From a virus, in IMG/VR virus record IMGVR_UViG_3300027730_000007, positions 33,641 to 97,640 of that record: 64,000 nucleotides of DNA; one strand, given 5' to 3'. A program made the position numbers and the translations under genes. Every line of letters begins with the position of its first letter. The first letter of the stretch is position 1. Shown here piece by piece: positions 23,773-62,059 of this stretch. The notes under the pieces were generated by a model that made no database searches, was not told where the DNA came from, and saw only the letters and a program-made list of their open reading frames with translations.

Positions 23773-24078
23773 ATGAAAGAGCAAATAAAAAACCTATTAA
23801 GAGAAGGATTACTTCAAAATAAAGGATTAGAAACAGCTTGCAATACAATGAGCGTGGCATCATATAAAGAAGGTATTGCTTTAATTATTAGTGCTATTGG
23901 TACACCAGAGCAAAATCCATCAATGTGGAAGCGTATCGAGCGACCAATTAAAAACTGGCGAGATGCGGATAAATTAATTAGTCATGAAATTAAAACCAAG
24001 CGTATGTCTGGTGATTCAATGGTTGATGAGTCTAATACTTGGTGGTCTGCTGTTCAATCAACTATTTGTCCTAAATAA
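23773..24078 (+). CDS. Small protein with LLREGL head-targeting-like leader
   Basis: 101 residues. The first 14 residues, MKEQIKNLLREGLL, match the leader shared with 25111, 25593, 48500 and 61304. The LRE tripeptide fits the (L/I)xE cut site of gp21-type proteases. The rest (KTKRMSGDSMVDESNTWWSAVQ) is a conserved-looking small domain of unknown function. Co-transcribed with the tail gene upstream. Inference: a protein packaged inside the head and trimmed after residue 11. Confidence 0.75.
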   Translation: MKEQIKNLLREGLLQNKGLETACNTMSVASYKEGIALIISAIGTPEQNPSMWKRIERPIKNWRDADKLISHEIKTKRMSGDSMVDESNTWWSAVQSTICPK

Positions 24079-24092
24079 TTTTTTTGATTTAC

Positions 24093-24123
24093 TTGACAAT
24101 TATTAATTTTATTAGTATATTTA
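24093..24123 (+). promoter_or_regulatory. Host-type promoter TTG-N20-TATATTTA
   Basis: TTGACA at 24093-24098 and TATATTTA at 24116-24123. The TTG to TA distance is exactly 20, as in the other host-type promoters of this window. It also reads as sigma70-like TTGACA-17-TATATT. It would give a ~100-base 5' leader to the gene at 24229; no other feature is seen in that 150-base gap. Confidence 0.6.
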
Positions 24124-24228
24124 TCATTACATTAGCTCAAGTATCAGTCCCGACCAATAAAATGGTTTAGAGTTGTTAACGCAACAAAGGTATTGGTACA
24201 ATAACAATAAATTAAAAAGTTAATAAAC

Positions 24229-25059
24229 ATGACACAAAAAATGATGGCACCTAATGTGCCAACGGCAAATATTGCTGTAAACAAATCTCGTATTAAATTA
24301 TACGACAAGAATGTAGAAGTACCAACTTACTACTTGAAAAAAGGCCAAGAATTTCAAATTGAATTGGCAAACATGACTACCGATGTAGTCTTAGCAAAAA
24401 TAATACTTAATGGTAAATCTTTATCTCAAGGTGGTCTGGTATTAAACCCAGGTCAGAGAGTCTTCTTGGACAGATACTTAGACGTAGCCAAAAAGTTCTT
24501 ATTTGATACGTATGATGTGTCAAATACACAAGAAGTTAAAGATGCTATTAGAGATAATGGTGATATTAAGGTAGAATTCTATCGAGAAAATATCAACACC
24601 TATCAATCACCAATCGTTATTAGACCACTTGATTACACTTATCATCCTGATATTATAAGATATAATACTTATACATCAAATACTTATTGTGCCTCACAAC
24701 CAGTGTTTGGTCGACCAAACACTAATGATAACACCACACTAACAAGTACCTTAGGGGGTTATTCGTCTGGTCAGATTTTAACTTCGGCTTTATCAGCTAA
24801 TAACTCACCACTTAGAGGGGTGTCAAAATCACTTGAAACTGGACGAGTTGAAAAGGGTTCTGACTCCAATCAAGAATTAACATCGGTTAATAAATCATTC
24901 TATTATCTACCATTCCATACGGTAACGTATAAACTATTACCAATATCGCAAAAGATTAATACCCTTGAGGATATTAATGTAAAAAGATATTGCACATCTT
25001 GCGGTGCTAAGGTCGGTAAAACTGATAGGTTTTGCAGTCAGTGTGGGGCCAAAGCGTAA
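24229..25059 (+). CDS. Unknown protein with C-terminal zinc ribbon
   Basis: 276 residues. The N-terminal 110 residues are beta-rich (FQIELANMTTDVVLAKIILNGK, VLNPGQRVFLDRYLD) and resemble a virion-surface or decoration fold more than an enzyme. The middle is Ser/Thr/Asn-rich and the last 22 residues are a zinc ribbon with two CxxC pairs (CTSCGAKVG, FCSQCGAKA). It has its own promoter and is closed by a terminator, so it is an independent unit. Function unknown; abundant virion protein is a guess. Confidence 0.75.
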   Translation: MTQKMMAPNVPTANIAVNKSRIKLYDKNVEVPTYYLKKGQEFQIELANMTTDVVLAKIILNGKSLSQGGLVLNPGQRVFLDRYLDVAKKFLFDTYDVSNTQEVKDAIRDNGDIKVEFYRENINTYQSPIVIRPLDYTYHPDIIRYNTYTSNTYCASQPVFGRPNTNDNTTLTSTLGGYSSGQILTSALSANNSPLRGVSKSLETGRVEKGSDSNQELTSVNKSFYYLPFHTVTYKLLPISQKINTLEDINVKRYCTSCGAKVGKTDRFCSQCGAKA

Positions 25060-25085
25060 ATAAAATAACTTGAGTTAATGTATAA

Positions 25086-25112
25086 AAAAAAGGAGCATAA
25101 TGCTCCTTTTTT
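25086..25112. terminator. Bidirectional intrinsic terminator
   Basis: Stem AAAAAAGGAGCA (25086-25097) with complementary TGCTCCTTTTTT (25101-25112) and loop TAA, flanked by A and T runs on both sides. It separates the converging genes ending at 25059 and 25111. Confidence 0.85.
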
Positions 25113-25596
25113 ATTTGCTTATAATTTGTTGTATGTCATCAAAACTAACTGAATCATTTATATACCAGAATCTATCAGCATCTCTAAAAGTATCTTCACC
25201 ATCAAAACCATTTCCTAAGATATAATTAGATGACCTAAATAAATACAAATCTTGACTATTATTATCCTTATGGTGCCATGCTATGTCAGTAATCTCATCT
25301 AGGGCTTTATTAAATGTTTCTTCATTATTAAAACCGTAACCACTTAAACCCCACTCTGGGTCAGAATTCCACATTCCACTAACAGGGTCTTCTTTTGGTT
25401 CACTTTCTAAATACACACCTTTAGATTTTCTTTCTTCATAATCAGCCATTGCTTCCTCATAGGTATCGTACCAAGCTTGCATATGTCCACTAAAATTACG
25501 TTCTATATCATTTTCTGGTGAATCAGTCCAACGTAAAAATAGCATCGTATCCTTATTTAAACCCTCTCTTAATAGCTTTCTTATAAGAACTTTCAT
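25111..25596 (-). CDS. Leader-bearing protein of unknown function
   Basis: 161 residues. Leader MKVLIRKLLREGLN is followed by an acidic globular region rich in Trp, Tyr and Asp (WYDTYEEAMADYEER, WNSDPEWGLSGYGF). No catalytic motif recognised. It overlaps the stop of the upstream gene 25593 by 4 bases, and both carry the same leader. Predicted to be cut after LRE (residue 11) by the gp21-type protease. Head-internal cargo is inferred. Confidence 0.75.
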   Translation of the reverse strand: MKVLIRKLLREGLNKDTMLFLRWTDSPENDIERNFSGHMQAWYDTYEEAMADYEERKSKGVYLESEPKEDPVSGMWNSDPEWGLSGYGFNNEETFNKALDEITDIAWHHKDNNSQDLYLFRSSNYILGNGFDGEDTFRDADRFWYINDSVSFDDIQQIISK

Positions 25597-25787
25597 TTTT
25601 TATACTTAATAATATTATCTTTATTTGAATTTTTATCAAATTCATCTTTATCTATAAATTCCCACATATTATTTTCAGCCTTTCTTTTATAGTATAAATT
25701 AGAACCATCAATATCTCTAATTTGATATTCAAATTTGGATTCAACTAATAAACCCTCTCTTAATAGCTTTTTTATATGTTCTTTCAT
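25593..25787 (-). CDS. Small leader-bearing protein
   Basis: 64 residues. Leader MKEHIKKLLREGLLVESK is almost identical to that at 23773. The remaining ~45 residues are charged (YYKRKAENNMWEFIDKDEFDK). An ATATTTATT box lies just 3 bases before the ATG. Too small for an enzyme; possibly a DNA-associated internal peptide. Function unknown. Confidence 0.7.
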   Translation of the reverse strand: MKEHIKKLLREGLLVESKFEYQIRDIDGSNLYYKRKAENNMWEFIDKDEFDKNSNKDNIIKYKK

Positions 25788-25790
25788 ACT

Positions 25791-25799
25791 AATAAATAT
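25791..25799 (-). promoter_or_regulatory. ATATTTATA-type box (minus)
   Basis: Reads ATATTTATT on the minus strand, 3 nt before the ATG at 25787. Such short spacing implies a leaderless transcript if it is a promoter. Confidence 0.5.
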
Positions 25800-25845
25800 G
25801 TTGAACCTTTAGATAAATTATCTTCAGCCCATAATTATTAAACGC

Positions 25846-27438
25846 TTACATTATCAATTCGTACTTAAATAAACCACAATCCCATATTCTATCATAACCT
25901 AATTCGCTAGTCAATTCTTTCTCCGTTTTATTAAAATCCATATTAGGGTATTTTTTCCTTATAGCGTTTTTACCAAAACCAAATTTGTGAAATCGTTTAT
26001 GTTTATCTACTTTTGAATTATAATAGCAATAATTGGGTTTAACCAAACCAACTAGTTTAAACCCAATATTTGTGTAAAGGTTGTTATTTACATCAAGCGT
26101 CCAACGCCTATCAGCAAAACTAATTATATTTTTAGGTGAATAATCGTTTATAAATTGTTTTATGAATTTAGATGCCAACCCACTAATAATATAATTTTGC
26201 TTTGTTGCATATCTAGTTAATTCATATTCACCATCGTTAGTTTTTGTCATGTTACGCTTATTTGAAAAAGTCATTACACCTACTAATTCATTATTATAAT
26301 AAGCCCCATAATTTATTGTTGAGTTATCATTACCTTGGATATGGTTTTCTTTTAAAAATAACCCTTTTTCTTTCCCGTTAATTATCTTGACCTTAACGTT
26401 TCTACCACCTATTTTAATACCATCATTTATTTTTAATATGTGCTTTAATTTATTTTTAACTAATTCCTTATTAAGAACCCATTCATCCTCAAAAATATGT
26501 ATTAATTTAATACCTATTTTCTCACAAGCCATTGTTTTATCTAAATGATAAGTAGAGTTTTTACCCATTTTTTCGGTGTGATAATATAATCCATTATATT
26601 CTATACCTAATTTAATTTTAGGTATTATTAAATCTATCTCTTTACCGTTCAATAGTTTTCTATTTTTGCTCTTCTCAACACTAAAACCTAATTCTTCAAT
26701 AAACTTTTTTATTTCAATTTCACCCTTTGATGTCCAGCTTGGTTTCATATTAATATTAGTTATTTTTATATTGTTTCTAAAAATAACAGACGATGATTCA
26801 GATATTAATTTATTATTAGGAAATAATAATTTATAGTCATTACTACTAATATTGTGTTTAGTTTTTAAATGTGTATTTGATATAAGTTTCATTTTTTTTC
26901 CACATAAATTACAAACAACATAATTTTTTTCGTCAAGGAATAACTCTTCTCTTTCTTTATTTTTTATTGTGGTTTTAAATATGTGTTCTATATTTATTTC
27001 TTTATCCTTTTCAACAATATCAAAATATACCTCAAACCATTTTTTATTATTAACTAATTCATATTTTTTTCGTTGATAAGTGTTAGACGGAATTTTAATA
27101 TCACCATAGGTATTTAAAATATGTCTAGTTAATGTCCCAGATAAATTATTTGGGTCATCAAACTCTATTTTTGTTTTTTTACAAATGGCAACTAATTTTT
27201 TATTGGAATTATTTATTGAATACAGTTTAGTGTTAGATTTTTCAATATCATGACTATTACCAATTTTAACTTGCCCACCCTTTTTATTAATCGCTATAGA
27301 ATGCTCAGTTAAAATTAATCTAATCCTATCATTACCAACTTTAAATAATTCACCAAGTTTATGTATACTAACTTTATCTTCTTCATATAATAAAATAATT
27401 TTTTTTATATCTTCTTCTGTTAGATTTGTTTTTGCCAT
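25846..27438 (-). CDS. Free-standing homing endonuclease
   Basis: 530 residues from the ATG at 27438. A TTG further up overlaps the promoter -7 box and is rejected. Order: an N-terminal helix-turn-helix (EEDIKKIILLYEEDKVSIHKLGELF); a C2-type zinc site (VCNLCGKKMKL with distal His); a PD-(D/E)xK/Vsr-like nuclease core (KGEIEIKKFIEELGF, KEIDLIIPKIKLGIEYNG, then YHLDKTMACEKIGIKLIHIFEDEW); a C-terminal GNAT-like domain (VGVMTFSNKR, YELTRYATK, ISFADRRW). This domain set is common in phage homing nucleases. It lies just downstream of the capsid gene, behind its own host-type promoter. Confidence 0.85.
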   Translation of the reverse strand: MAKTNLTEEDIKKIILLYEEDKVSIHKLGELFKVGNDRIRLILTEHSIAINKKGGQVKIGNSHDIEKSNTKLYSINNSNKKLVAICKKTKIEFDDPNNLSGTLTRHILNTYGDIKIPSNTYQRKKYELVNNKKWFEVYFDIVEKDKEINIEHIFKTTIKNKEREELFLDEKNYVVCNLCGKKMKLISNTHLKTKHNISSNDYKLLFPNNKLISESSSVIFRNNIKITNINMKPSWTSKGEIEIKKFIEELGFSVEKSKNRKLLNGKEIDLIIPKIKLGIEYNGLYYHTEKMGKNSTYHLDKTMACEKIGIKLIHIFEDEWVLNKELVKNKLKHILKINDGIKIGGRNVKVKIINGKEKGLFLKENHIQGNDNSTINYGAYYNNELVGVMTFSNKRNMTKTNDGEYELTRYATKQNYIISGLASKFIKQFINDYSPKNIISFADRRWTLDVNNNLYTNIGFKLVGLVKPNYCYYNSKVDKHKRFHKFGFGKNAIRKKYPNMDFNKTEKELTSELGYDRIWDCGLFKYELIM

Positions 27439-27453
27439 ATTTTTTATTTTATA

Positions 27454-27484
27454 CAAAGATACCAAATTAAAACCATAACGTCAA
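27454..27484 (-). promoter_or_regulatory. Host-type promoter of the homing endonuclease gene
   Basis: On the minus strand TTGACG (27484-27479) and TATCTTTG (27461-27454), with TTG-N20-TAnnTTTG spacing. It matches the Bacteroidota -33/-7 pattern exactly, and the ATG follows the box by 15 bases. Confidence 0.8.
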
Positions 27485-27587: not shown

Positions 27588-29480
27588 TTATCTCAATTCA
27601 GCAACGTTAAACGTTGGTACACCATCTACACGGATAGCTCCGTAAAAGCGGTTATTTACCATTTTTTTAGCGTAACGTGTCATGATACCCTTAACTGGGG
27701 CAAAGTTAAACGGATTGTACATAGTTGGTGTAAGTTGCAAAGGCACGTATGGTGCGTAGATGTAACCTGTATCCAACAATGATTTACCTTTGTGACCGAT
27801 GATGATTGAGTATGCTGGTGCATAAGGGTCACGGTACACTTGGTAACGTCCGCTTAATGTACCGATTCTCTCAATACCCATGTTGTATTGGTCTTGCTCA
27901 GGGTTAGCATCACTTACGTGGAAGTATTCCAAATCATCAAATATCGCTGAAATTTCAGAAGATACTACGATAATGTTAGCACCACCACGAAGAGTTGACT
28001 TGTGGATTTGAGCACTAGTTTGGTTTACTCTTGTGATAAGAGTTTGATTCCAGTCTTTTTGTGTGTAAGGACTTGCAGCAGAAGAAGCTCTTCTCCAACC
28101 GTTATAATCCCAACGTAATTGCCATGCAGAACCTGTACGCAAATCTCTAAGGATTTCACGGTCAATTTCAGCAGCAACTTGTTCTGACAACATAGCTGTC
28201 AATTCAGCTTCAGCATCAATGTTGTGGAATGCACTAACGTCTTGAGCCAATTCTGGTGACCATGTTGCACGTAATTTACGTTCTTCAACACTTACTACTA
28301 CTTCGTCAAGTCTAAATGAAACTTCACCAAGTTCTGTTTCCAATTCAAGAGAAGCGTATTCAGCCCATCCAAAAACAAGACCAGCAGTAGTTGTAATCGC
28401 TGATACAGTTGTTGCAGAAGCACCAACATAACCATCATAAGTTTCAGTACCAGCTACGGCAACACCGCTTGCAGTGGTACCAACTGGGTGACGTAAGTCA
28501 ACCTCAACATACATTACATTACTAGAATTCGCTGCACCAGTTTTTGTACCTTGAACGATAGCCTTACCGTATTGTTGTGTAACTACACGGAATGGCACCT
28601 TACTACCACCAACAACAATTTTATTACCATCACTATCTAAGATAGCATTAGTAGTAACACATTGTAATGAAGCCAAGAATGACTCAGTATCCATGTTGTT
28701 ACCGTCTGGGCCAGTCAATACTCCACGGCCATTAGTACCAGCACCACCACTGAAACCAGACATTGTTAAAAGAACAGTTCTAACTGAACCATCAGTTGCT
28801 CTTGGGAAAGAAGCTGATGGGGTCAATACTGTAAAAGTACCGTCAGAATTTAAAATGTTAGCGTTTGCATTAGTAATCGCATAGGTTTTCATTGTAAGAG
28901 TACCTTTAGAGTTATCGAACAAACCATCATCATAGAATGCATCATACAAGTTTTTAGCTTGCATTTGAGTCAACTTAACACCGTTAGTAGAAACGATAGC
29001 TGGAACAGCAGCAGAAGTTGCAGAACCATCATGCTCACCGTTAAGACCAGTGTGTGCTGAGTATTGTGTTCCATAAGTGGCATCAGTTGATGATACACCA
29101 TTGTAGTTGCTACCAGCAACAGCTGGGTTAGCACCGTTAACACGGCTAGATGTTTGTGGAACGAAGTAGAACAATTTACCAATTGGCATGTTCATAGCTT
29201 GAACCGATACGATATCATTCGCTAATAATTTAGAGAAAACTCTACGTACAATTGGGAATACAACTGTTTCGAAAGAACCAGATGATGTCGCTGTTGTGCT
29301 TTCGCTCAACAATTGAGAAGCTTGGTTCTCATACAATTGTGCAACGTTTTCTTTAACGTGGCCTTTTAGACCTTCTAGGAAGCCTAAGCTTTCCCATTTT
29401 GCTTGGGTTTCTTGACGGATAGCCTTCATGTGGTTCAATCCGATGTTACCAACTTGTCCAGATGTTAATAAATGTGACAT
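27588..29480 (-). CDS. Major capsid protein, T4 gp23-like
   Basis: 630 residues (T4 gp23: 521). Diagnostic stretches in order: SFETVVFPIVRRVFSKLLAND (about 70-90), VQAMNMPIGKLFYFVPQT, then ERKLRATWSPELAQDV, AEAELTAMLSEQVAAEIDREI, and near the end GRYQVYRDPYAPAYSIIIGHKG and APYVPLQLTPTMYNPF. A Thr/Gly/Ser/Ala-rich insertion around residues 110-270 accounts for the extra length. LLSE60-S61 fits the (L/I)xE cut that removes the N-terminal propeptide of gp23 (after residue 65 in T4). Follows the scaffold gene after 28 bases and is closed by a strong terminator. Confidence 0.95.
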   Translation of the reverse strand: MSHLLTSGQVGNIGLNHMKAIRQETQAKWESLGFLEGLKGHVKENVAQLYENQASQLLSESTTATSSGSFETVVFPIVRRVFSKLLANDIVSVQAMNMPIGKLFYFVPQTSSRVNGANPAVAGSNYNGVSSTDATYGTQYSAHTGLNGEHDGSATSAAVPAIVSTNGVKLTQMQAKNLYDAFYDDGLFDNSKGTLTMKTYAITNANANILNSDGTFTVLTPSASFPRATDGSVRTVLLTMSGFSGGAGTNGRGVLTGPDGNNMDTESFLASLQCVTTNAILDSDGNKIVVGGSKVPFRVVTQQYGKAIVQGTKTGAANSSNVMYVEVDLRHPVGTTASGVAVAGTETYDGYVGASATTVSAITTTAGLVFGWAEYASLELETELGEVSFRLDEVVVSVEERKLRATWSPELAQDVSAFHNIDAEAELTAMLSEQVAAEIDREILRDLRTGSAWQLRWDYNGWRRASSAASPYTQKDWNQTLITRVNQTSAQIHKSTLRGGANIIVVSSEISAIFDDLEYFHVSDANPEQDQYNMGIERIGTLSGRYQVYRDPYAPAYSIIIGHKGKSLLDTGYIYAPYVPLQLTPTMYNPFNFAPVKGIMTRYAKKMVNNRFYGAIRVDGVPTFNVAELR

Positions 29481-29508: not shown

Positions 29509-30738
29509 TTATTTTTGTTCAACTCTACTAATTAAATCAAGGATTCTTTTAGTAGAAGGGTCAACATAAGCAGTCGATTCGTTTAGTTGTTTTGAATTAC
29601 TTGTGCTGGCCTCTTTGATTATTTTATTTTCTACTACTTCACGAACGGTTTCTCTTTTTTCCAATTCACTAGCAATAGTTCTGTACAATCTTTTTGACTC
29701 TTTAAGGTTAGTAACACCAGTATCAAATCTCTTGATAATGTTTTGTTTCTCAGCCTTGGTAGTCGAATGCTCCATAAACAATCTTGTTACATATGTAAGA
29801 TTGCTATTGAAGATAACTGTTTCTACAAGCTTGGTTCTAAATTCTTTTAAGCCATCTCTGAACATTTCGTTCTCAACCTTTAATTTTTTAGCTTCACTTA
29901 ATAGGGTATTATATTTGTTTGCTGTTTCGGTAAGTAATTTCTTTGTAGCGATACTTTCGTCAATTTTTGACTTAGGGTTTTCAGGAGCACCGATTGATTT
30001 AGGTCCTTGGCCACGGTGAGTACCTACACTCATACCTACACCAACACCAATTTTTTCGTCAAGCGTTTCTTCTTCTTCCTCTTCATCACCCATTTCTTCA
30101 TCACCCATTTCTTCATCACCCATTTCTTCATCATCACCTTCGATATCATCAACAGGTACGAAGTCACTTGATTCTTCTTCATCATCAAGTTCAATCTCGT
30201 ATTCCATATCGTCATCGTCAGATGCTGGTAGACCAGATGCTGGCAAACCAATGTCAGATGTCTTAACAATATATTCACCTGGTTCTGAAATGTTTAAACG
30301 TATTTCATCACCAACGATATTGATTTCATCTTCACCGCTTAATTTTTTGTAAATTGCAATAACTTCATCGTCTGATGCAGCTGTCATGTCCAATTCATCT
30401 GATGATTCAAAATCATCCATTCCGTTTTCGTATGAGTCTTCATCATCAGATGATGCCATAGACATATCGCCTAATTCATCACCCAAGTCATCACCCATAT
30501 CATCGATTGACATGTCATCTTTAGTTATTTCTTCAGAAGTCATTGTGTCATCATCTTCGATGTCAACATCAACGCCTTCTTCTTCATAAGCCTCTCTAGC
30601 TAATGATTCTTTCACAACCCCATCAATTTCTTCTTTAGCAATGCTACGAAGTATTTCTTTCGTGTTGGCATCAAGAGCATTTTGAATACTTTTAATATCC
30701 AATAATGCTTCCTCAAGTATATTTTTTTTCTCTGCCAT
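29509..30738 (-). CDS. Prohead scaffold/core protein (gp22-like)
   Basis: 409 residues, directly between the prohead protease and the capsid gene, as gp22 in T4. The central third is extremely acidic (repeated GDEEM, EEEEEET) and the C-terminal half helical. Several protease-type sites are visible: KKLLTE-T, NTLLSE-A and KQLNE-S, which fits a scaffold chopped to peptides after assembly. N-terminus MAEKKNILEEALLDI. Assigned from position, acidity, helicity and cut sites rather than a named domain. Confidence 0.8.
   Translation of the reverse strand: MAEKKNILEEALLDIKSIQNALDANTKEILRSIAKEEIDGVVKESLAREAYEEEGVDVDIEDDDTMTSEEITKDDMSIDDMGDDLGDELGDMSMASSDDEDSYENGMDDFESSDELDMTAASDDEVIAIYKKLSGEDEINIVGDEIRLNISEPGEYIVKTSDIGLPASGLPASDDDDMEYEIELDDEEESSDFVPVDDIEGDDEEMGDEEMGDEEMGDEEEEEETLDEKIGVGVGMSVGTHRGQGPKSIGAPENPKSKIDESIATKKLLTETANKYNTLLSEAKKLKVENEMFRDGLKEFRTKLVETVIFNSNLTYVTRLFMEHSTTKAEKQNIIKRFDTGVTNLKESKRLYRTIASELEKRETVREVVENKIIKEASTSNSKQLNESTAYVDPSTKRILDLISRVEQK
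30091..30135. repeat. Three tandem 15-bp repeats in the scaffold gene
   Basis: Unit CATTTCTTCATCACC repeated at 30091, 30106 and 30121 (last copy altered at its end), with a partial copy before. Encodes the repeated GDEEM units and is a likely site of copy-number variation. Confidence 0.8.
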
Positions 30739-30855: not shown

Positions 30856-31575
30856 TTATAATAAAAATTTATTTAAATCATCGATTAAATTTTCTTTTAT
30901 AACATTTTTAGTGGTGGTAACGCTCTCAACGTAAGGCTTAGCTTCTTCAACATTTTTAAATATCCATGCATCTGGTGTTGATGGTGCGGTAACTATATCC
31001 CAACAAATTATCTCGAAATCTTCTTGGACTATTTGTTCACCGTTCTTACCTTCTTTTAGCGAACCTACACCTCTAGATGAAACACCTATCTTAATTCTAT
31101 TTCTTAATAGGTTAGCAACTTCATCACCCTTGGTTGAAACGATACCATAATTAATAAAGCCTGGAGTCATTAGGATTTCCATCTTACCCATTAGTGTATG
31201 ACCTTCCCACCATGTTTCAATAATATTGTGAGATATTCTATCGATAGAAATAACTGAACTTTCTGGGTGGTCACATTCACCTACAGCACCTCTAGATTTA
31301 ATTAATTCTTGATATAGTTCATTTTGTTTTCTTAGAATGTGTTCTGGGTAAACCCTACCATTTCGGTTTAAGATACCGTATTTTTGTAGTATAACATATA
31401 CAACTAGAGGTTCACCGATAATTACCTTACCAGTTTCTAGTTTTTTCATTTCGTTAATGAATGGTAAATTTCTAGGCTCATCAGGACTAATGTAACCAGC
31501 GTCTTGTTCGATGAGGAATCCAAAACCACTTTGACCACGCTTGATAACCTTAATATCGTTATAATTTATTTCCAT
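30856..31575 (-). CDS. Prohead protease, T4 gp21-like (peptidase family S80)
   Basis: 239 residues, matching gp21 in size. ILNRNGRVYPEHIL (about 68-81) is the family signature, GECDHPESS holds the catalytic His (103), and KIGVSSRGVGS holds the nucleophilic Ser (166/167). TAPSTPDAWIF is a further conserved stretch. It would cut capsid, scaffold and internal proteins after (L/I)xE during maturation. The C-terminal tail NVIKENLIDDLNKFLL resembles the leaders of other proteins in this window and could be removed by self-cleavage. Gene order protease-scaffold-capsid is as in T4. Confidence 0.92.
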   Translation of the reverse strand: MEINYNDIKVIKRGQSGFGFLIEQDAGYISPDEPRNLPFINEMKKLETGKVIIGEPLVVYVILQKYGILNRNGRVYPEHILRKQNELYQELIKSRGAVGECDHPESSVISIDRISHNIIETWWEGHTLMGKMEILMTPGFINYGIVSTKGDEVANLLRNRIKIGVSSRGVGSLKEGKNGEQIVQEDFEIICWDIVTAPSTPDAWIFKNVEEAKPYVESVTTTKNVIKENLIDDLNKFLL

Positions 31576-32138: not shown

Positions 32139-32918
32139 TTAATCTAAATTAGACTTTAATTCTACTAATTTTGAAATATTTTTTGAAAAATTTTCATCAA
32201 TTGCTTGAACTGTATTTAACAATTTATCCTTAACTTGTAATAGCTTATCTTTAGCGTTTAAATCAGCGGTACTAAGCTTCTCATTTATCAAATCAATGCA
32301 TTCTCTAACCAGCTGAGAGTAAATCTCTTTTTTCTCCAATTCATTTGAAGATATAAGAACCTTAAGAATCTTCTTTTCCGATTCAGATAATGATTCATAT
32401 TTTTCATTGTATTTAGTAATCATTAGATTGGAAATTACACTATTTGGTAGACCGATTTGTTCAATAATAACCCTTGGTTTATTATTTAAGATATACTTAA
32501 TAACTTTATCCGTTGATTCAACAATAGTATTAATATTATTTGAAGCTTTTTTGGTAAAGATAAGCTTTGAAATATTTTCATATAAGTCATTTGTTTCATC
32601 AACAATATCCCAAGTAATTAGATTAGCCAACTTGGTATTTGCCTCTAATATATCCTTTATTTTATACTTAGCCATTAAGTCAATATTTTCTTTTACAAAT
32701 AATAAAGCCTTACCAGCATCAGTTTCACAGGTATTTTCAAGGTTATTATAAACCATAAATTGAGTGCGAAGAATTTCGTTTTCTTTTATGGTTTTTAAAT
32801 AAGTTTTAAATACATTATTTTTACCATTATCTTTAATAATGATATTTTCAGCTAAGATATTATTAAAGTTATCTTTAATCTTACCAAAATTTTTTACTAT
32901 GCTTGCTATATTTGACAT
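32139..32918 (-). CDS. Unknown helical protein beside the portal gene
   Basis: 259 residues, almost wholly helical with an acidic/basic mix (KALLFVKENIDLMAKYKIKDI). No motif or membrane segment. In T4 the place between portal and protease is occupied by the prohead core proteins gp67/gp68, so this may be a core or portal-associated protein; position is the only evidence. Confidence 0.7.
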   Translation of the reverse strand: MSNIASIVKNFGKIKDNFNNILAENIIIKDNGKNNVFKTYLKTIKENEILRTQFMVYNNLENTCETDAGKALLFVKENIDLMAKYKIKDILEANTKLANLITWDIVDETNDLYENISKLIFTKKASNNINTIVESTDKVIKYILNNKPRVIIEQIGLPNSVISNLMITKYNEKYESLSESEKKILKVLISSNELEKKEIYSQLVRECIDLINEKLSTADLNAKDKLLQVKDKLLNTVQAIDENFSKNISKLVELKSNLD

Positions 32919-32963: not shown

Positions 32964-35030
32964 CTATTCACCTAACATTTTATCAATACCATTAATCATA
33001 GTATCAATTTCTTCGTTAACCTTAACATTCTTATCGTAGACCTTAACCTTTTCATCGATATGTGTAGTCTTTGGCTTAATTGACTCAATCAAGGTGTTAA
33101 CAAATCGACCACGGTACTTTTCAGTCCTTTTGTTTAATTTATTAGCCAATATAACCTTCTGTTCACCCAATACACGCTTTATTCTTTTTACAGATTCGGC
33201 AACTTGTTCTGGTGTTTCTTCATCACCAAAAGTTAAATCTTCACCACCTTCTGTATTTGTGTCAGTACCTTCTGGTGTTTCACCTTCTGGCGTATCACCT
33301 TCTGGTGTATCACCAAAATCTAGGTCTTCACCACCAGTACCGCCACCACCAAATGAACCACCTAGGCCACCGCCACCGCCACCGCCACCACTAGCAGCTG
33401 CGTCACCGCCTTCACCTCCACCATTACCACCACCTTGTAGTGCTAAGTCCATATCACCATAGACTCTATCAACTACATCAAAGGTACCAGTATGCTTGAT
33501 AACATTTGCCGAATTAGCTAATTCAGCAGAGGCAGCTTTTTCTATTCGTTGTTCAAGTAAATCTGATTTTATTTCATCATCTGACCAACCCATAATTTCT
33601 CTATGTGCACGAGTCCATGACATCGTAGCAAATCCATTACCAGTATCTGATACTGCATCTTTAAGTAACGTAACTTTTTGTTGCATATGTTCAACTCTAA
33701 GCATATCAGCTTGTGTTGATGGATTATTTAGGGTTAATGTAAAATTATCAAAATCTTCTTCAAAGCCTAATAAGTATAAGTGAATAATAGCTATCTTATT
33801 TAATTCTTGAATCATTGATTGTTGAATCCTATTGATTGTTCTAGAAAATCTAATATCTTGTAGTGCAAGGTTTTTACCATCACCAGTAGTCTCATCGAAC
33901 CCTAAGAATGGCTTAGGCACACGTAATGCAGTAAATAAGTTATTCCTTAAGTATTCAATATCTGCAATCTGGTCAAGATTAGTTGCACCTGGAAGCGTAT
34001 CAATTGGGCTTGGTGCATCTTCACTTCTAACTGGTATAAAATAATCTTGGTCATTAGCCATTTGATTATATCTTAGGTCCATTTGACCAGTTTGTGAATC
34101 CATTACTTGTGCACGTTTGAATCTATCAGCGATACTATTAACATATGCTGGTACATCAGCATCATCAATATTACCTACGTATATTTTGTATATTCTTCTT
34201 TCTGGTGCTCTAGTAACACGATACACCAACATAGCATCCTCAGACATGATAAGTTGTTTCCAAATACGTCTAGCTTTTTCTAAAAAGCTTGTACCATATG
34301 GTAAACGTTTATCCTCACCCAATAATCTAAAGTGGGCCATTTGCCATGAGTTGAACTCAACATTACGACCCCTCCATATAAATTTTGTTTTATCTGTTTT
34401 GTTAGATGATAAATCTACCTCTACAGTACTTCCGTTAATAACACTAAATAAATCATTCTCCCTACGGTCCATTTCATAGTTTGGCATTTGCTTAGCGCCA
34501 ATAATACCGTTTGCATCATCGATATTTAAATAAACGAAATTATCACCGTATTTACATGTGTTTCTAGTCCACATAGGTAATGATGTATGAATATCAAGCC
34601 TATTATAAAATAAGTCCTCTAATATACCCTTAACACGCTTACTATCAGAATAAATATTCATTATTTTACCCTTATCGTTAACGGTTGTGGATTCTTCCAT
34701 CATTACGTCTAATGCGGCAGCGATGGCTGGATAAAACTCCATATTCTCAAAATCACTATATGATGCAATTCTTGTTGTTTCATAGTTGATAGATTGTTGA
34801 AATAATCCGCTATCAACTCTAGACCATTGATTTGCTAGAAATCTATTCTGTTGTTGTTGTAGCTTAATCCTATCAAAATCAGCTTTATTATCCGTTTTTA
34901 ATAGAACATCACTACCAATATTATATCGTTGAGTATTTGTTTTGGCTTGTGCTTGTTTTGGTCTAGTGTTCTCAGGATTAATAACTTGTCCAAGACGTTG
35001 AAATATAGTTAAATTATTTTGCTGTGCCAT
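32964..35030 (-). CDS. Portal protein, T4 gp20-like
   Basis: 688 residues (T4 gp20: 524). Core stretches of the T4-type portal: RIASYSDFENMEFYPAIAAALDVMMEE (about 70-95), MWTRNTCKYGDNFVYL, FIWRGRNVEFNSWQMAHFRLLG, RRIWKQLIMSEDAMLVYRVTRAPERR and IADIEYLRNNLFTALRVPKPFLG. After about residue 535 there is an unusual Gly-rich stretch followed by Glu/Thr/Pro/Gly repeats and a final basic helix containing RVLGE-Q and TLIE-S, both of (L/I)xE form. The tail beyond the core may be cleaved or act as an internal anchor. Confidence 0.93.
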   Translation of the reverse strand: MAQQNNLTIFQRLGQVINPENTRPKQAQAKTNTQRYNIGSDVLLKTDNKADFDRIKLQQQQNRFLANQWSRVDSGLFQQSINYETTRIASYSDFENMEFYPAIAAALDVMMEESTTVNDKGKIMNIYSDSKRVKGILEDLFYNRLDIHTSLPMWTRNTCKYGDNFVYLNIDDANGIIGAKQMPNYEMDRRENDLFSVINGSTVEVDLSSNKTDKTKFIWRGRNVEFNSWQMAHFRLLGEDKRLPYGTSFLEKARRIWKQLIMSEDAMLVYRVTRAPERRIYKIYVGNIDDADVPAYVNSIADRFKRAQVMDSQTGQMDLRYNQMANDQDYFIPVRSEDAPSPIDTLPGATNLDQIADIEYLRNNLFTALRVPKPFLGFDETTGDGKNLALQDIRFSRTINRIQQSMIQELNKIAIIHLYLLGFEEDFDNFTLTLNNPSTQADMLRVEHMQQKVTLLKDAVSDTGNGFATMSWTRAHREIMGWSDDEIKSDLLEQRIEKAASAELANSANVIKHTGTFDVVDRVYGDMDLALQGGGNGGGEGGDAAASGGGGGGGGLGGSFGGGGTGGEDLDFGDTPEGDTPEGETPEGTDTNTEGGEDLTFGDEETPEQVAESVKRIKRVLGEQKVILANKLNKRTEKYRGRFVNTLIESIKPKTTHIDEKVKVYDKNVKVNEEIDTMINGIDKMLGE

Positions 35031-48487: not shown

Positions 48488-48497
48488 ATATTTATTA
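48488..48497 (+). promoter_or_regulatory. ATATTTATA-type box
   Basis: ATATTTATTA immediately after the clpC terminator and only 2 bases before the ATG at 48500. Confidence 0.5.
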
Positions 48498-48499
48498 TC

Positions 48500-49033
48500 A
48501 TGAAATCGATAATTAAAAAACTTCTTAGGGAAGGCTTAGATAAAACAATAAAATGCAGTCAGTGTAATTGGTCTTGGAAAGAATCTGAGACCGATAAAAA
48601 AGACATGTATGTTTGTCACAAGTGTGGGCATGATAATTCACCAAAAAAAGAATCGTTAAATGAAACCATCTTAACCAAAGACGAAAAAGATATTAAGGCT
48701 ATTGCTGATTTTATTAACTTTGCTAAAGATTATCTAAAGATTACTGATGATGTCCAAATAAAACTAGCGTTTAAAAGAATACCATCACTAACCACAACAG
48801 CCTACTATGATACAAGAGGTGAAATAATGGTCTACGTTAAAGATAGGGCCATAATCGATGTATGTAGGAGCTTAGCGCACGAACTTGTACATCACAAGCA
48901 AAATCTAGATGGTCGCTTAACTAATGTAGCTGAAGATGGTGCTGATGGTAGTGAAATAGAGAACGAAGCAAATGCTGTTGCTGGAAAATTAATTAGGATT
49001 TACGGTAAATTAAACCCAGAACTATATGTCTAA
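48500..49033 (+). CDS. Leader-bearing zinc-ribbon / putative zinc metallopeptidase
   Basis: 177 residues. Leader MKSIIKKLLREGLD; zinc ribbon CSQC (19-22) and CHKC (39-42); a linker; then a compact domain with LAHELVHHKQNLDG, an HExxH site (His127, Glu128, His131), and a downstream SEIENEANAVAGKLIR helix offering a third acidic ligand (E144 or E146), as in minimal gluzincin-like peptidases. Predicted to be carried in the head (leader), cut after LRE (residue 11) and delivered to the host. Peptidase activity is inferred from the motif only. Confidence 0.75.
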   Translation: MKSIIKKLLREGLDKTIKCSQCNWSWKESETDKKDMYVCHKCGHDNSPKKESLNETILTKDEKDIKAIADFINFAKDYLKITDDVQIKLAFKRIPSLTTTAYYDTRGEIMVYVKDRAIIDVCRSLAHELVHHKQNLDGRLTNVAEDGADGSEIENEANAVAGKLIRIYGKLNPELYV

Positions 49034-49901
49034 TGTTAAAATATTATTAAAAGAACATTTATATGTTGTTGATAAAGAAAGTTTATTAACTGAAGAATCA
49101 TTGTTGTTAATTAAAGACTATGAATATGTTAATAATATATTAGGTATTAAATATAATATAAATGAGTCTATTGATACTAATATTAAAATTAAAATAATAC
49201 AAGAACAGCTTATTGTTGAATCAATATTATCGTCAATTAATGATTATATTGGACAAGCTTATACCAAAGGTAAAGAAAAAACGTTAGAGGTAATCGATAG
49301 TATCAAAGGATTAAAAGATATCGCAAAATTGTTCAAAGATATTCTTTTAGATTCAAGTCTTATGAATGTCGCTATTAATAAGATAACGCAAGTCTTGACT
49401 GATACCATGCAAAGAATCAAACAAACAGCCAATAAAATATTAACATCAATAAATATTAATATATCTAATTTTAATGAAAAATTCGAAGCATTAATTAATC
49501 ACATTGAAAGGGTGACGAAAAACTTGGTTTCAGATACTGGTTGGAAAGGTTTTATCTCTTGTCTTGGTTTTACAACTTTATTGGTCTATGTTGAAGAAAA
49601 ATTTTTAAATAATATGCTTCAAAATACCCTAAAGTTTATTGGTGATAATATTAATATATTAGTAAATATAGCTGATATTTTTAATGGTTTTAAATCGTTA
49701 AAATCATTGGTTGGAAACACTCTTGAAATACAACCTATATTATCTTGGTTTTCGGAAATAGGTAAAGGTGCTACATTAGGTGTTGGGTTGGTTGCCATTG
49801 ATGTTATTGGTATCGTCAACAAAGTTTTAACACCAATAATTAAATCCGTTGAGTGGGCCAACAAACTTAAAAAACCTACCCAACAAATTAAAACAATATA
49901 A
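49026..49901 (+). CDS. Unknown helical protein, possibly membrane-interacting
   Basis: 291 residues. The N-terminus SNVKILLKEHLYVVDKESLLTEES has LKE and LTE sites like the leaders. The remainder is helical, with hydrophobic stretches GWKGFISCLGFTTLLVYVEEKFL (about 174) and GATLGVGLVAIDVIGIVNKVL (about 250). These could insert into or span a membrane. Overlaps the peptidase gene by 8 bases. An ejected pore or internal protein is one possibility; not proven. Confidence 0.65.
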   Translation: MSNVKILLKEHLYVVDKESLLTEESLLLIKDYEYVNNILGIKYNINESIDTNIKIKIIQEQLIVESILSSINDYIGQAYTKGKEKTLEVIDSIKGLKDIAKLFKDILLDSSLMNVAINKITQVLTDTMQRIKQTANKILTSININISNFNEKFEALINHIERVTKNLVSDTGWKGFISCLGFTTLLVYVEEKFLNNMLQNTLKFIGDNINILVNIADIFNGFKSLKSLVGNTLEIQPILSWFSEIGKGATLGVGLVAIDVIGIVNKVLTPIIKSVEWANKLKKPTQQIKTI

Positions 49902-49906
49902 ACATT

Positions 49907-50332
49907 ATGCCATATACACATAGAAAAGTCGGTGATAAAGAATGCGTCTTTAAGAAAGACGGTGGTGCTAAAGTAGGTTGCACCAAAGGCGATATCAACA
50001 AATACTTAGCAGCATTATATGCTAACGTAGATGAAGCTAATACAATTAAAGGTGGTAAAGCCGATAAATTAACCATCAAGCAAATAGCCGATAAATTTGG
50101 TAAGTCCGTAGATGATATCAAAGCACAAATAAAAAAAGGTATCACTGTCGAAATGGAACATACTTCAGATAAGGAAAAAGCAACTGAAATAGTTATGGAC
50201 CACCTGTCTGAATTTCCAGATTATTATGATAGACTTAAGAAAATGGAAGATAAAGCCAAAGAAACATTTAAAACAAATGAAGGTTTATCTTATTCAATAA
50301 AACGTTTATTAAGAGAAGGTTTAAATTATTAA
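49907..50332 (+). CDS. DUF5661-type protein with C-terminal LLREGL motif
   Basis: 141 residues. The N-terminal part (VGDKECVFKKDGGAKVGCTKGD) is a short conserved phage module. The middle, KLTIKQIADKFGKSVDDI followed by HTSDKEKATEIVMDHLSEFPDYYDRLKKME, fits the DUF5661 family. The protein ends SIKRLLREGLNY, which is the leader motif placed at the C-terminus. Operon with 48500 and 49026. The 3' end overlaps the converging gene by 12 bases. Confidence 0.8.
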   Translation: MPYTHRKVGDKECVFKKDGGAKVGCTKGDINKYLAALYANVDEANTIKGGKADKLTIKQIADKFGKSVDDIKAQIKKGITVEMEHTSDKEKATEIVMDHLSEFPDYYDRLKKMEDKAKETFKTNEGLSYSIKRLLREGLNY

Positions 50333-54253: not shown

Positions 54254-54577
54254 CTAATTAAAATTTTTTATCTTATTATATAAGCGCTCAAGTTCTGGTG
54301 TATACGTCTTAACAGACTCAAGTACCTCGATTACAATGTCCTTTGGATTGCATTCATCAGTAAGCTTATACTGAAGCTCTTTAACTCGTAACATATCATT
54401 TAAACTATTCTTCAGCTCAAGCACCACTTGGTTGTATGTCGCCCACGCTTCACGATTTGAATACGGGCCGTCATGTAGTTGGTTGGTTATTTTATCCTCA
54501 TATTGGTGCTCTAAAACGGTGTCAAATGCACCATAGTGCTCTCGTAATATTCTCCGTATCTTGCCCCTGTAACTCAT
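54254..54577 (-). CDS. Leader-bearing protein, paralogue of 53795
   Basis: 107 residues. N-terminus MSYRGKIRRILREHYG carries an ILRE site in the leader position. The C-terminal half shares the K/QY+hTD-x-NP motif with 53795. Directly follows 54579 (one base), so co-expressed. Predicted internal head protein; function unknown. Confidence 0.65.
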   Translation of the reverse strand: MSYRGKIRRILREHYGAFDTVLEHQYEDKITNQLHDGPYSNREAWATYNQVVLELKNSLNDMLRVKELQYKLTDECNPKDIVIEVLESVKTYTPELERLYNKIKNFN

Positions 54578-56358: not shown

Positions 56359-56805
56359 TTATTTATAAACCTCTAGGATAATTTCCTTAACAACCAAATT
56401 ACCATTAGAATCATTAACCATAACAACCTCAACTTCATTACCAATAGTAACTTGACCACTACCCGTATTTTCTTCGACATTAATCATGGCCCAATCTAAG
56501 CTTATCGGTAACGTGATTACATCTTCATTATCATTAACGTAGTAATAAACTTCAATATCAACTTCTGTCGGCCCTGTAATACCATATAAGCTAATGTCCT
56601 TGATTCCCCAGCTTCTAGCCTCAATCTCGATGTCATAATATACCGTGGCTTTGATTGTTGGTATTTCACTTATTTCATTACCCTTATAGGTCGCACGATA
56701 TGTGCTAAAGCTTAACACAACTTCCCTACTATACCTATTATCTACCTGTTCGGTTAATCTAGATTTTAAACGCTTTAATTGACTTTCAGTAATTATTAAT
56801 TTCAT
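56359..56805 (-). CDS. Protein with IITESQL-type leader
   Basis: 148 residues. Leader MKLIITESQLKRLKSRLTEQ contains two (L/I)xE sites (ITE-S, LTE-Q). The rest is all-beta (TIKATVYYDIEIEA, EVDIEVYYYV, SGQVTIGNEVEVVMV), resembling a small beta-sandwich. An ATATTTATA box lies 10 nt upstream. Predicted head-internal or virion protein; function unknown. Confidence 0.7.
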   Translation of the reverse strand: MKLIITESQLKRLKSRLTEQVDNRYSREVVLSFSTYRATYKGNEISEIPTIKATVYYDIEIEARSWGIKDISLYGITGPTEVDIEVYYYVNDNEDVITLPISLDWAMINVEENTGSGQVTIGNEVEVVMVNDSNGNLVVKEIILEVYK

Positions 56806-59185: not shown

Positions 59186-59188
59186 ATC

Positions 59189-59196
59189 TATAAATA
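59189..59196 (-). promoter_or_regulatory. ATATTTATA-type box
   Basis: Minus-strand TATTTATA, 3 nt before the ATG at 59185. Confidence 0.4.
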
Positions 59197-59229
59197 GCTT
59201 TGTTTTTATACTAACACATTAAAAAATTG

Positions 59230-59601: not shown

Positions 59602-59966
59602 TTTTTTCTTAGTTCTTTTTGTACCTTAATATAATCACTGAAAAATGTATCAAATAATACCGTAGTGGCAACATCAACCTTCTTGATATTAAAAGCCCCA
59701 CGTATATCAGATAATGAAACCATTATATCGTCATCATTCTTCTCCTTGGTTCGCTTGACCACAAGCGGCCCCTTATCCTCAACCCCTTCACCAGTACTGG
59801 TTAATTGCTTATATAATGTCTCAATATCAATGCTAACTTCACCAGATTTCATACCCTTTAGCTTTAGATTAATCGTCTGAGTATCCGTAAGCGTTATTAA
59901 TATCTCTCGATTATCAAACCTTATCTTGCTTTCCCTAGTTAAATCTTTATCAAGTATTGTAGCCAT
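59598..59966 (-). CDS. Unknown protein
   Basis: 122 residues, beta-rich first half (EILITLTDTQTINLKLKGMKSGEVSIDI), charged linker, helical end. No family recognised. First gene after a host-type promoter (59983-60013), so probably early, co-transcribed with 59230. Confidence 0.7.
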   Translation of the reverse strand: MATILDKDLTRESKIRFDNREILITLTDTQTINLKLKGMKSGEVSIDIETLYKQLTSTGEGVEDKGPLVVKRTKEKNDDDIMVSLSDIRGAFNIKKVDVATTVLFDTFFSDYIKVQKELRKK

Positions 59967-59982
59967 ATTTTATGCTTTTATA

Positions 59983-60013
59983 CAAAGGTACATAAACTAT
60001 TCCAAAGTTCCAA
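59983..60013 (-). promoter_or_regulatory. Host-type promoter (minus), overlapping a divergent box
   Basis: Minus strand TTG (60013-60011), 20-base spacer, TACCTTTG (59990-59983). The -33 end abuts the plus-strand AATATTTATA box at 60013. Confidence 0.75.
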
Positions 60014-60022
60014 ATATTTATA
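60013..60022 (+). promoter_or_regulatory. ATATTTATA-type box
   Basis: AATATTTATA, 17 nt before the ATG at 60040. Confidence 0.55.
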
Positions 60023-60039
60023 GACAAAGTTACCACTAA

Positions 60040-61302
60040 ATGAAGTTCGTTAGATATAACCCAAGCCTGTTAGTTGAAAATGCTAAGCCAAATATGTCAG
60101 TAAAACAATTGGATGAAATAGACCAATTGGCCTCTAGTATCGATACCCACTTAGGTCAAGAACTACACGTACCAAATGATGTGCTTGATAGCTTTAAGAT
60201 TAAGGATACCCTATCCCCAGATATCTGGCCCGATGGCAACCTATCACCTAAGATTAAAACACAACTAGTAAGAATCGCTAAGGACTTTATTAAAGAACTT
60301 AAGCCCAAGACACCAATAAGGATTAAAGATATTCTTTTTACTGGCTCTTTAGCTAATTATAATTGGTCCAAGTTCTCAGATATTGACATGCATATTCTAG
60401 TCGATTTTAATGACCTAGATGCAAATAAAGATATAGCCAAAGAATACTTTGATGCACAAAAAAATCTCTGGAACCAAAAACATGATATTACCGTATTCAA
60501 TTATCCTGTTGAACTATATGTTCAAGATGTTAAAGAAAAATTGGTGGCAACCGCTGTGTATTCAGTATTGCACGATAAATGGATTAGAAAACCTGAGCGT
60601 GAAAGCTTTAAATTAAATAAAAAAGTCATAAAGGATAAAGCTGATAAATTTATTACACAACTTAAAGATATTAGAACCGCATATAAAAAAGAAGACTACC
60701 AAGAAGTTGTTGATATGGTCACTAGCCTTAAGGCTAAGATTAAAACGATGCGTAAATCAGGACTAGAAAAAGGTGGTGAACTCTCAGATGAAAATATCGT
60801 CTTTAAGGTCCTTAGAAGAACCCAATTTATGGAAATACTAGATAGCTTTAAGGCTAAGGCATATGATAAGCTTATGTCAGTTGTCGAAACGCTAAACGAA
60901 GATGAAAGATGGAACAAGGATGGTGTTGTCTTTATCCGTGGCCAAGTCTTGCCAGATAATGAACAACGACTTTTCGTAACAACTACTAAGAATATACTAA
61001 ACGTAAATAAAAAAAAGAAAGATAACTCAGATGCCATACCAGCTGAAATGATTTCTTTTGGTAATAATCCAGTATATCGTGTCGGTTTAATAGATGGTAG
61101 ACTTAAGCCCCTAAAGGTGGATTGGAAATCTAAGGAATCTATGCTACAACGCTTAGGTCTTACTACGACAAGCCTTGCACTTAACGCTGATACCAAGACT
61201 CCATTGCATTGGAAATCTCTTAAGTATAATAATGTAATAACAGCTATTAATAACCTATCCCAAGAATTACAAGCATTGCCAAATATAAAATGGATTAACT
61301 AA
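60040..61302 (+). CDS. Pol-beta-type nucleotidyltransferase
   Basis: 420 residues. DILFTGSLANYNWSKFSDIDMHI contains the GS (102-103) and DxD (114-116) of the pol-beta nucleotidyltransferase superfamily, with a third carboxylate likely in HDITVFNYPVELY. The following helical part (about 200-300) and a C-terminal beta-rich half are unassigned. The N-terminus NPSLLVE-N matches the leader-type cut site. Possibly packaged in the head and used on host RNA or protein; that is inference. Confidence 0.8.
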   Translation: MKFVRYNPSLLVENAKPNMSVKQLDEIDQLASSIDTHLGQELHVPNDVLDSFKIKDTLSPDIWPDGNLSPKIKTQLVRIAKDFIKELKPKTPIRIKDILFTGSLANYNWSKFSDIDMHILVDFNDLDANKDIAKEYFDAQKNLWNQKHDITVFNYPVELYVQDVKEKLVATAVYSVLHDKWIRKPERESFKLNKKVIKDKADKFITQLKDIRTAYKKEDYQEVVDMVTSLKAKIKTMRKSGLEKGGELSDENIVFKVLRRTQFMEILDSFKAKAYDKLMSVVETLNEDERWNKDGVVFIRGQVLPDNEQRLFVTTTKNILNVNKKKKDNSDAIPAEMISFGNNPVYRVGLIDGRLKPLKVDWKSKESMLQRLGLTTTSLALNADTKTPLHWKSLKYNNVITAINNLSQELQALPNIKWIN

Positions 61303-61303
61303 G

Positions 61304-62059
61304 ATGAATATTAATATAAAAAGACTTCTTAGAGAAGCCCTAGAAAAACGACTCCCAGATACCACGTTCTCCCAAGAATTAAAGCAACACCAATATCCAA
61401 GCCTTAGCAACCCATCCAGAACGGCTGATATTAATCAGCTTTATTATAGAATAAATAAAGCAGCTCAACAAGCAAATGCCTTTATGTCAACAAACCCAGA
61501 TGATAACTACTTTAATTCACCAGAAGATGGTACTGGATTCTACCAAGTAGAACTTAGACATGATGGTCAAATAAAAACCAAGCACATCAAAGCAAGCCCA
61601 GATATGCAACAAATGGATGGTGCCTTTAGACCAAGTGATGTGGGTACTTGTAAGACATACCAAAACATAGCTAGATATTGCTTCGTTAAGGCTGGCAAGA
61701 ATGGTACCAGCGTTGGTGCTAGCCCAGCTGAAGATGCCGCTAATAAGGCCCTAATCATCTTTAGAAATGAACTAATTGACTTCTTGGATGGTTCATCTTA
61801 TGATGATGGTAAAGGCGCAGAAATATCTAGAGAAAAAATGTCACATAAACAAGCATTAAAAAAGCAGAAAAAAGACCTAGAAACCAAGATAGGTCGTAGA
61901 ATATCAGACTCAGAATGGATGGATTTCCTTGAGTCAGGTCAAGAACCTAAGCCTAAGCCTAGTATTACAACTAACCCAGATGCTAATGCTGAATTTGAAA
62001 AAAGACAAGCAATGGCTATCGCTAGAAGAAATGCAGCACTTAAAAATCGTGGTCAATAA
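61304..62059 (+). CDS. Leader-bearing protein of unknown function
   Basis: 251 residues. Leader MNINIKRLLREALEKR; polar middle with conserved-looking VGTCKTYQNIARYCFVKAG; a helical lysine-rich C-terminal part. Starts 1 base after the nucleotidyltransferase stop, so co-expressed and perhaps co-packaged with it. No catalytic motif recognised. Confidence 0.75.
   Translation: MNINIKRLLREALEKRLPDTTFSQELKQHQYPSLSNPSRTADINQLYYRINKAAQQANAFMSTNPDDNYFNSPEDGTGFYQVELRHDGQIKTKHIKASPDMQQMDGAFRPSDVGTCKTYQNIARYCFVKAGKNGTSVGASPAEDAANKALIIFRNELIDFLDGSSYDDGKGAEISREKMSHKQALKKQKKDLETKIGRRISDSEWMDFLESGQEPKPKPSITTNPDANAEFEKRQAMAIARRNAALKNRGQ

Follow-up and report, generated by a model that had tools for sequence, protein, structure and literature searches.

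A shared N-terminal leader on unrelated phage proteins suggests a T4-like capsid-targeting and prohead-cleavage system

We analysed a window of 64,000 bases (bases 33641-97640 of the 97,640-base virus record IMGVR_UViG_3300027730_000007) for a short leader peptide shared by otherwise unrelated proteins. Five proteins of the window begin with the strict consensus M(K/N)xx-I-(K/R)-(K/N/R)-L-L-R-E-(G/A), in each case at the true start of an open reading frame (ORF), and the bodies that follow it are unrelated (Table 1; genes are named by their first coordinate, related records by our G and L labels). A first-pass annotation of this DNA had assigned leaders to the same five genes and looser forms to 49026 and 54254, and all of them are present at the places given. 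The MK start that it described as common to the five holds for 23773, 25111, 25593 and 48500, whereas 61304 begins with MN. It had overlooked a C-terminal tag on 49907-50332 and a second cut-like site within 48500. Relatives of the looser 49026 protein begin with MNTIKALLKEE or MNNTRTLLREE, the 54254 protein is conserved in G028 and G037, and relatives of 25593 are present in L016, a record of the G016 type. The same virus record encodes a second leader class (pattern MKLIITESQLKRL...LTE), represented in the window by 56359 and outside it by MKLIINERQLKLIEDHINE↓S and MTKIKITESQYKKIL. All three genes have a putative late-promoter box, described below, 18-21 nucleotides (nt) before them, and judging by sequence this class may play a corresponding role.

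Table 1. Coordinates of leader genes, head genes and promoter-like boxes in the window (↓, predicted or cut-like site; aa, amino acids).
Feature	Position	Strand	Details
Leader protein 1, candidate cargo	23773..24078	+	101 aa; MKEQIKNLLRE↓G; leader 23773-23805; predicted cut after Glu11, codon 23803-23805
Leader protein 2, candidate cargo	25111..25596	-	161 aa; MKVLIRKLLRE↓G; leader 25564-25596
Leader protein 3, candidate cargo	25593..25787	-	64 aa; MKEHIKKLLRE↓G; leader 25755-25787
Leader protein 4, candidate cargo	48500..49033	+	MKSIIKKLLRE↓G; leader 48500-48532; zinc ribbon, then SLNE55↓T (Glu codon 48662-48664), then HExxH metallopeptidase module
Leader protein 5, candidate cargo	61304..62059	+	251 aa; MNINIKRLLRE↓A; leader 61304-61336
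Looser leader, candidate cargo	49026..49901	+	MSNVKILLKE↓H; Glu10 codon 49053-49055
Looser leader, candidate cargo	54254..54577	-	MSYRGKIRRILRE↓H; Glu13 codon 54539-54541
Second leader class	56359..56805	-	MKLIITESQLKRLKSRLTE↓Q
Candidate cargo with C-terminal tag	49907..50332	+	TNE 50273-50281; IKRLLREGLNY and stop, 50297-50329 (...SIKRLLREGLNY, stop); DUF5661 body
Prohead protease, S77/gp21 family	30856..31575	-	PF03420, E=7e-25; phrog_207 (PHROG head maturation protease), E=2e-40
Major capsid protein, gp23 type	27588..29480	-	cut-like site QLLSE60↓S; Glu codon 29301-29303
Acidic scaffold/core-like protein	29509..30738	-	409 aa; 12 [LI]xE sites; begins MAEKKNILEEA; between capsid and protease genes
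Second core-like protein	32139..32918	-	259 aa; 10 [LI]xE sites
Portal protein, gp20 type	32964..35030	-	part of T4-like head module
TATTTAT, putative late-promoter box of 25593	25792..25798	-	4 nt before ATG
TATTTAT, putative late-promoter box of 48500	48489..48495	+	4 nt before ATG

The pattern MKxxIKKLLRE[GA] was back-translated and searched in 2.9 million viral contigs and in 257 Gb of bacterial and archaeal genomes. It matches 42 stretches in the viral contigs, nearly all of them starts of genes with differing bodies, and none in the prokaryotic genomes, and a chance origin of the leader was rejected on these counts. Such a search across the genome and its relatives had been proposed in the first-pass annotation; no other ORF start in the full 97,640-base record carries the strict leader. 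When single codons of the pattern were freed, the number of matches rose to 44 for the Glu and to 43 for the Leu two residues earlier, with the extra matches looking unrelated. Freeing the Arg gave 52 matches, mostly with Lys, and freeing the residue after the Glu at least 118. In the non-redundant set the Glu position is E in 30 of 32 cases, both exceptions being unrelated starts, and it is mostly followed by G, N, S, A, E, T or Q. Judged by these counts the Glu and the preceding Leu are invariant and appear indispensable. Several leader-like matches were discarded as chance or different things, namely L098 (an HK97-type capsid), L071 and L072 (no Glu) and L073, and the seemingly N-terminal matches L036/L020, L038 and L108 are located inside longer ORFs.

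The codons of the leader vary about as codon usage does (TTA, CTA, TTG, CTT or CTC for L8; AGA, AGG, CGT or CGA for R10). Selection therefore acts on the peptide and not on a DNA site. A shared DNA or translation-start element, be it a promoter, a leaderless start or a recombination site, would be in keeping with the TATTTAT found 4-5 nt before the ATG of many leader genes and with the similarity of the neighbours 25111 and 25593 at the DNA level. Given the synonymous variation, a third codon position that is free while the Glu is fixed, and tags that also occur at C-termini and inside proteins, we rejected such an element in the main and consider it extremely improbable.

In whole-genome scans, first or second ATGs begin loose forms of the leader more often than internal ATGs do; the difference is clear in G000, G037 and G019 and weak in others. 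We also compared N-termini de novo between non-homologous proteins of one genome, using an internal position as control. The record of the window gives 14 N-terminal pairs, with 0 at the internal control position and 4 at C-termini. The corresponding numbers of N-terminal and control pairs are 240 vs 17 for G019, 31 vs 4 for the cultured Flavobacterium phage immuto, which uses other leader families, and 16 vs 2 for T4, where MKTYQEFIAEA was recovered as a positive control. Counts near background were obtained for G083 (9 vs 6), phiKZ (7 vs 6) and RM378 (4 vs 3). The set of shared N-termini in G019 is very large (MNLQESIRRILREE, MKKxELxQIIxEE).

The head genes of the window form a T4-like module of portal, core-like protein, protease, scaffold-like protein and capsid protein. 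When aligned to the solved structure of T4 gp21 (5jbl, 3e-16), the protease has His103 and the serine of GVSSRG in register. The gene had been annotated as a gp21-type protease of family S80. The gp21 type is borne out, and the family has to be corrected, the Pfam match being to S77. S80 is the family of the phiKZ gp175-type protease, and a system of this kind was rejected in view of the S77 match and of [AS]xE not being enriched at N-termini. Position and composition suggest a scaffold role for 29509, and 32139 may be a core protein; the many [LI]xE sites in both are as expected for shredded core proteins, and 24229 has none. A homing endonuclease gene (25846-27465, minus strand; phrog_3339, 1.5e-91) separates leader gene 25593 from the gene for the capsid protein. 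Some related records show peculiarities in the head genes: in G033, G098, G105, G114 and G117 one open frame (419-628 aa) holds the S77 match in two parts, split by an in-frame insertion that may be an intein or an inserted domain; G114 and G117 have a single in-frame TAA within an otherwise continuous gp23 capsid gene match; and G019 (268,739 bases) has S77 and gp23 genes in two copies each, some 200 kb apart, possibly representing two joined genomes.

T4 gp21 cleaves after L/I-X-E (PMC9026906) and takes off the first 65 residues of gp23 and the first 10 of gp24 (PMC9958956). Full-length relatives of the capsid protein carry a propeptide site LL(S/T/N)E60↓(S/A/T/G) whose register in the alignment matches FLTE65↓A of T4 gp23. 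T4 gp24 aligns at the same place, its propeptide MAKINELLRE↓S ending in ELLRE10↓S, and since gp21 removes these 10 residues, LLRE↓S is an established gp21 site. The propeptide of gp24 has the same ending as our leaders but lacks the shared MKxxIKK part, and gp24 is a shell protein, not cargo. For T4 internal protein (IP) III the first 10 residues are enough for targeting, and residues 8 and 10 govern processing (PMC9026906). We compared the frequency of [LI]xE ending at residues 8-16 with that at internal positions genome-wide. Most of the S77 phages compared show an N-terminal enrichment (p=4e-13 for G019; p ~0.001-0.002 for G028, G035 and G037), with p=0.02 for T4 and p=0.08 for G014. In the same test [LI]xD, [LI]xQ and [AS]xE are not enriched, nor is [LI]xE in phiKZ, G083 and G054.

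S77 is present in 23 of 40 leader records and in 24 of 50 further ones, compared with 3 of 45 viral contigs drawn with a random 15-mer as control. Many leader records are fragments, and the co-occurrence is therefore better tested conditional on the head module. Among the leader records with a solid gp23 match, that of the window included, 48 of 51 hold S77; in the other three (G006, G040, G091) the contig ends close to the capsid gene. All remaining leader records lacking S77 are also devoid of a solid gp23 match. The first set includes 17 leader records without S77; 16 of them lack the gp20 portal too, and G020 has its portal near its cut end. An equal occurrence of the motif in phages lacking the protease, which the first-pass annotation had named as an outcome that would speak against its proposal, is thus not observed. 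The co-occurrence of S77 and leader is necessary rather than sufficient evidence.

Bodies that stand behind the leader in one phage were found fused behind other modules in others. We aligned 33 non-redundant junctions by the body alone and then inspected the residue corresponding to the leader Glu. L/I/V/M-x-E is located exactly at this position in 15 of the 33 junctions (expected density 0.021; p=6e-17), and still in 11 of 28 (p=6e-12) after removal of those keeping the whole leader. Column by column, the 28 leaderless junctions have L/I/V/M at P3 in 16 cases (vs 0.23) and E at P1 in 12 (vs 0.08), whereas P2 and P4 to P7 do not depart clearly from background. Retention of just these two columns after loss of the helix is what tells a cleavage site from a docking helix. 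Relatives of 23773 either keep leader and body (FIKKLLRE↓QMIDGQ) or sit fused behind other modules (KSITE↓QMIDGQ, RGIKE↓EIIDGQ, YPVNE↓QMIDGQ, KKLNE↓NVIDGQ, NNLSE↓QMIDGQ), and in G035 the 61304 body is fused behind a nucleotidyltransferase of the 60040 type. Within the window 48500 is itself a fusion, in which KKESLNE55↓TILTK joins the zinc ribbon to the metallopeptidase (in G037 MSKGFIKQLLRE↓AIMTK). L53 and E55 are invariant in six relatives, and in the AlphaFold model the predicted local distance difference test score (pLDDT) falls below 50 only at residues 1-14 and 50-52. The zinc ribbon (WxWKxSES..YxCHKCGxDN) recurs after the leader before different modules or alone (57 aa) in L085, L097, L123, L154, L157 and 48500, as if it were a second reusable delivery module.

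The tag is also found at C-termini, as TNE↓GLSYSIKRLLREGLNY in 49907 and as INE↓NNKILIKRLIKENLNK, VNE↓TTKSLIKRLIRENLGL and INE↓TKVLIKKLLNEKLNSF in three relatives, each followed by the stop codon. An [LIVMT]xE site precedes 9 of the 11 internal or C-terminal tags by no more than 13 residues (background 0.16; p=4e-6); such a site would be needed to free the preceding module.

The leader could instead be an uncleaved docking peptide that binds scaffold or capsid, like an encapsulin cargo peptide, and that the protease leaves on the loaded proteins. A strongly conserved amphipathic helix, predicted here at residues 2-10, would alone suit docking; however, the Glu is as invariant as the helix, L/I-x-E is kept at junctions that lack the helix, and LLRE↓S is the known gp21 site of T4 gp24, which makes this explanation unlikely. 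Targeting to a place other than the head, such as the host membrane or another part of the virion, with an incidental LxE, is very unlikely: a basic amphipathic helix can bind membranes, but this would not account for the invariant Glu, the co-occurrence of the leader with S77 and gp23, the LxE kept alone at junctions, the site of the same kind in the capsid protein or the precedent of the T4 ADP-ribosyltransferase (ART) and IPs as head cargo.

A Pfam search of 77 non-redundant leader proteins identified ART-PolyVal (8), GNAT (5) and Nudix (2) families as well as single tRNA nucleotidyltransferase-like and kinase-like proteins, most of the 77 having no recognised family. ART-PolyVal is thus the largest recognised cargo family with 8 of 77, an enrichment that is partly circular as some records were selected via their ART leader gene; in records chosen via other genes about 5 of 8 ARTs have an LxE start, 3 of them of the MKxxIK type. 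The fold of the HExxH metallopeptidase module of 48500 weakly matches those of SPRTN and minigluzincins. Family searches of the single cargo proteins of the window found little. The 23773 protein is modelled as all-helical by AlphaFold (pLDDT 83), and a fold search with it gave no match. In a PADLOC scan PDC-S07 (2 cargo proteins) was the sole clear match. Most cargo proteins are single modules, multi-domain fusions being represented by L033/L034 and by a GNAT-like domain with a metallopeptidase in L036 and G014.

TATTTAT is located shortly upstream of clear late genes such as those for scaffold and protease, and precedes 68 of 136 leader genes compared with 537 of 3125 other genes (p=2e-17). 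This enrichment fits late expression, with the box as a putative promoter. In leader genes the distance to the ATG is most often 4-5 nt, and a second gene class has 14-15 nt; the short spacing could reflect leaderless late mRNAs. Boxes of the TANNTTTG type lie upstream of window genes 25846, 45668, 52323 and 59598. They resemble Bacteroidota promoters and therefore suggest a Bacteroidota host, which we consider probable for this virus.

The tag with its invariant Leu and Glu, the conservation of the protease and of the capsid LxE site, the co-occurrence of leader and S77, the association with late boxes, the effector-like cargo and the LxE pattern at junctions agree with the core idea of the first-pass annotation, a capsid-targeting leader served by a gp21-type protease; its S80 label was wrong. 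On these sequence features we consider it very probable that the phage targets proteins to its capsid and cleaves them in the manner of T4 and gp21, by means of another leader and with modular, partly polyprotein cargo. The basic amphipathic part MKxxIKKLL would dock the cargo in the prohead core, where it would be loaded into the head, and the S77 prohead protease would remove the leader after the terminal L/I-x-E. The same protease would trim the capsid protein at LSE60 and shred the core proteins. The tag may also be C-terminal, preceded by an xNE site of its own, or lie between two modules; a bare L/I-x-E would separate fused modules, so that several proteins could be delivered as one cleavable polyprotein. 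The cargo (ARTs, GNATs, Nudix proteins, metallopeptidases and others) would enter the host with the DNA. We lean slightly towards a broader reading, in which the tag signals delivery independently of its position and can be excised, its helix and cleavage site being separable, and works at N- and C-termini and internally. Polyproteins joined by L/I-x-E would then be split by the prohead protease inside the head, and several leader dialects (IKKLLRE, FDLKKFLVENKLT, MKKSQLRQIIKEAL, MKLIITESQLKRL) would serve this one purpose throughout the T4-like phages of Bacteroidota, making sets of injected effectors readable from genomes.

Several points weigh against the T4-like system. The window leader MKxxIKKLLRE is basic, comprises 11 residues and is unlike the T4 capsid-targeting sequence (CTS) MKTYQEFIAEA, with which it has only MK, a hydrophobic position and L/I-x-E in common. 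The S77 phages RM378 and Mel-JY01 are near background both for shared leaders and for N-terminal [LI]xE, and the short S77-less contig G068 scores p=0.03 in the N-terminal LxE test. Co-occurrence of S77 and leader may stem from shared descent alone, several records are fragments, the junctions are not all independent families, and a late box is visible before only half of the leader genes, counted gene by gene and not per operon. A literature search for virion proteomics of immuto or relatives found none.

Like T4 IPI-III and Alt, the proteins described here are otherwise unrelated and carry a short N-terminal leader ending in L/I-x-E. An S77 protease, a gp23-type capsid protein with an LxE propeptide site and an ART among the cargo are likewise shared with the T4 CTS/gp21 system, Alt being an ART and a gp21 substrate (PMC9026906). 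Protease, capsid site and leader architecture agree with T4 and the identity of the leader does not; the system therefore very probably works like T4 CTS/gp21 and is not a member of the T-even IP family. The T4 IPs have only their leader in common and block distinct restriction systems, each of those with a known job (Ip1-3) blocking one of the host (PMC12373910). Delivery of anti-defence proteins is known for this T4 system (PMC9026906, PMC12373910); the effector-like domains of the cargo described here are consistent with injection. In contrast to the few tagged proteins of T4 the cargo set comprises dozens of predicted effectors, and further differences to the IPs are C-terminal and between-module tags, LxE-separated fusions, more than one leader class per phage and the apparent Bacteroidota host. 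The phages phiKZ and SPN3US also have a prohead protease cutting after x-x-E (gp175-type) and many ejected head proteins (PMC9026906), but the protease belongs to another family with S/A-x-E specificity, and the phiKZ genome has neither an S77 match nor N-terminal [LI]xE enrichment. For ART and Nudix proteins, packaging in the heads of myoviruses had already been suggested for other reasons (PMC9503650), and ART, GNAT and Nudix effectors also occur as polyvalent proteins (Iyer et al. 2017), which are multi-domain and proposed as injected. Some of our cargo proteins are such fusions, but most are small with a recognisable tag, and the multi-domain ones have L/I-x-E at their junctions. A description of an IKKLLRE-type tag was not found in the literature searched.

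Phage proteins delivered with the DNA are known in few models. With a sequence rule marking such proteins, dozens of uncharacterised genes in a large and for the most part uncultured group of Bacteroidota-type phages would become predicted first-response effectors, and the junction pattern suggests delivery of cargo as cleavable polyproteins. The short tag is available for testing whether foreign proteins can be loaded into other phage heads.

Two further observations concern other genes of the window. An ATP-dependent protease gene (45961-48456, plus strand; phrog_4871, E 1e-249) is located directly upstream of the cargo cluster 48500-50332. At 397-14189 the plus strand of the window carries an extended series of genes whose starts, as judged by eye, resemble those of glycosyltransferases; most of these genes have no TATTTAT upstream.

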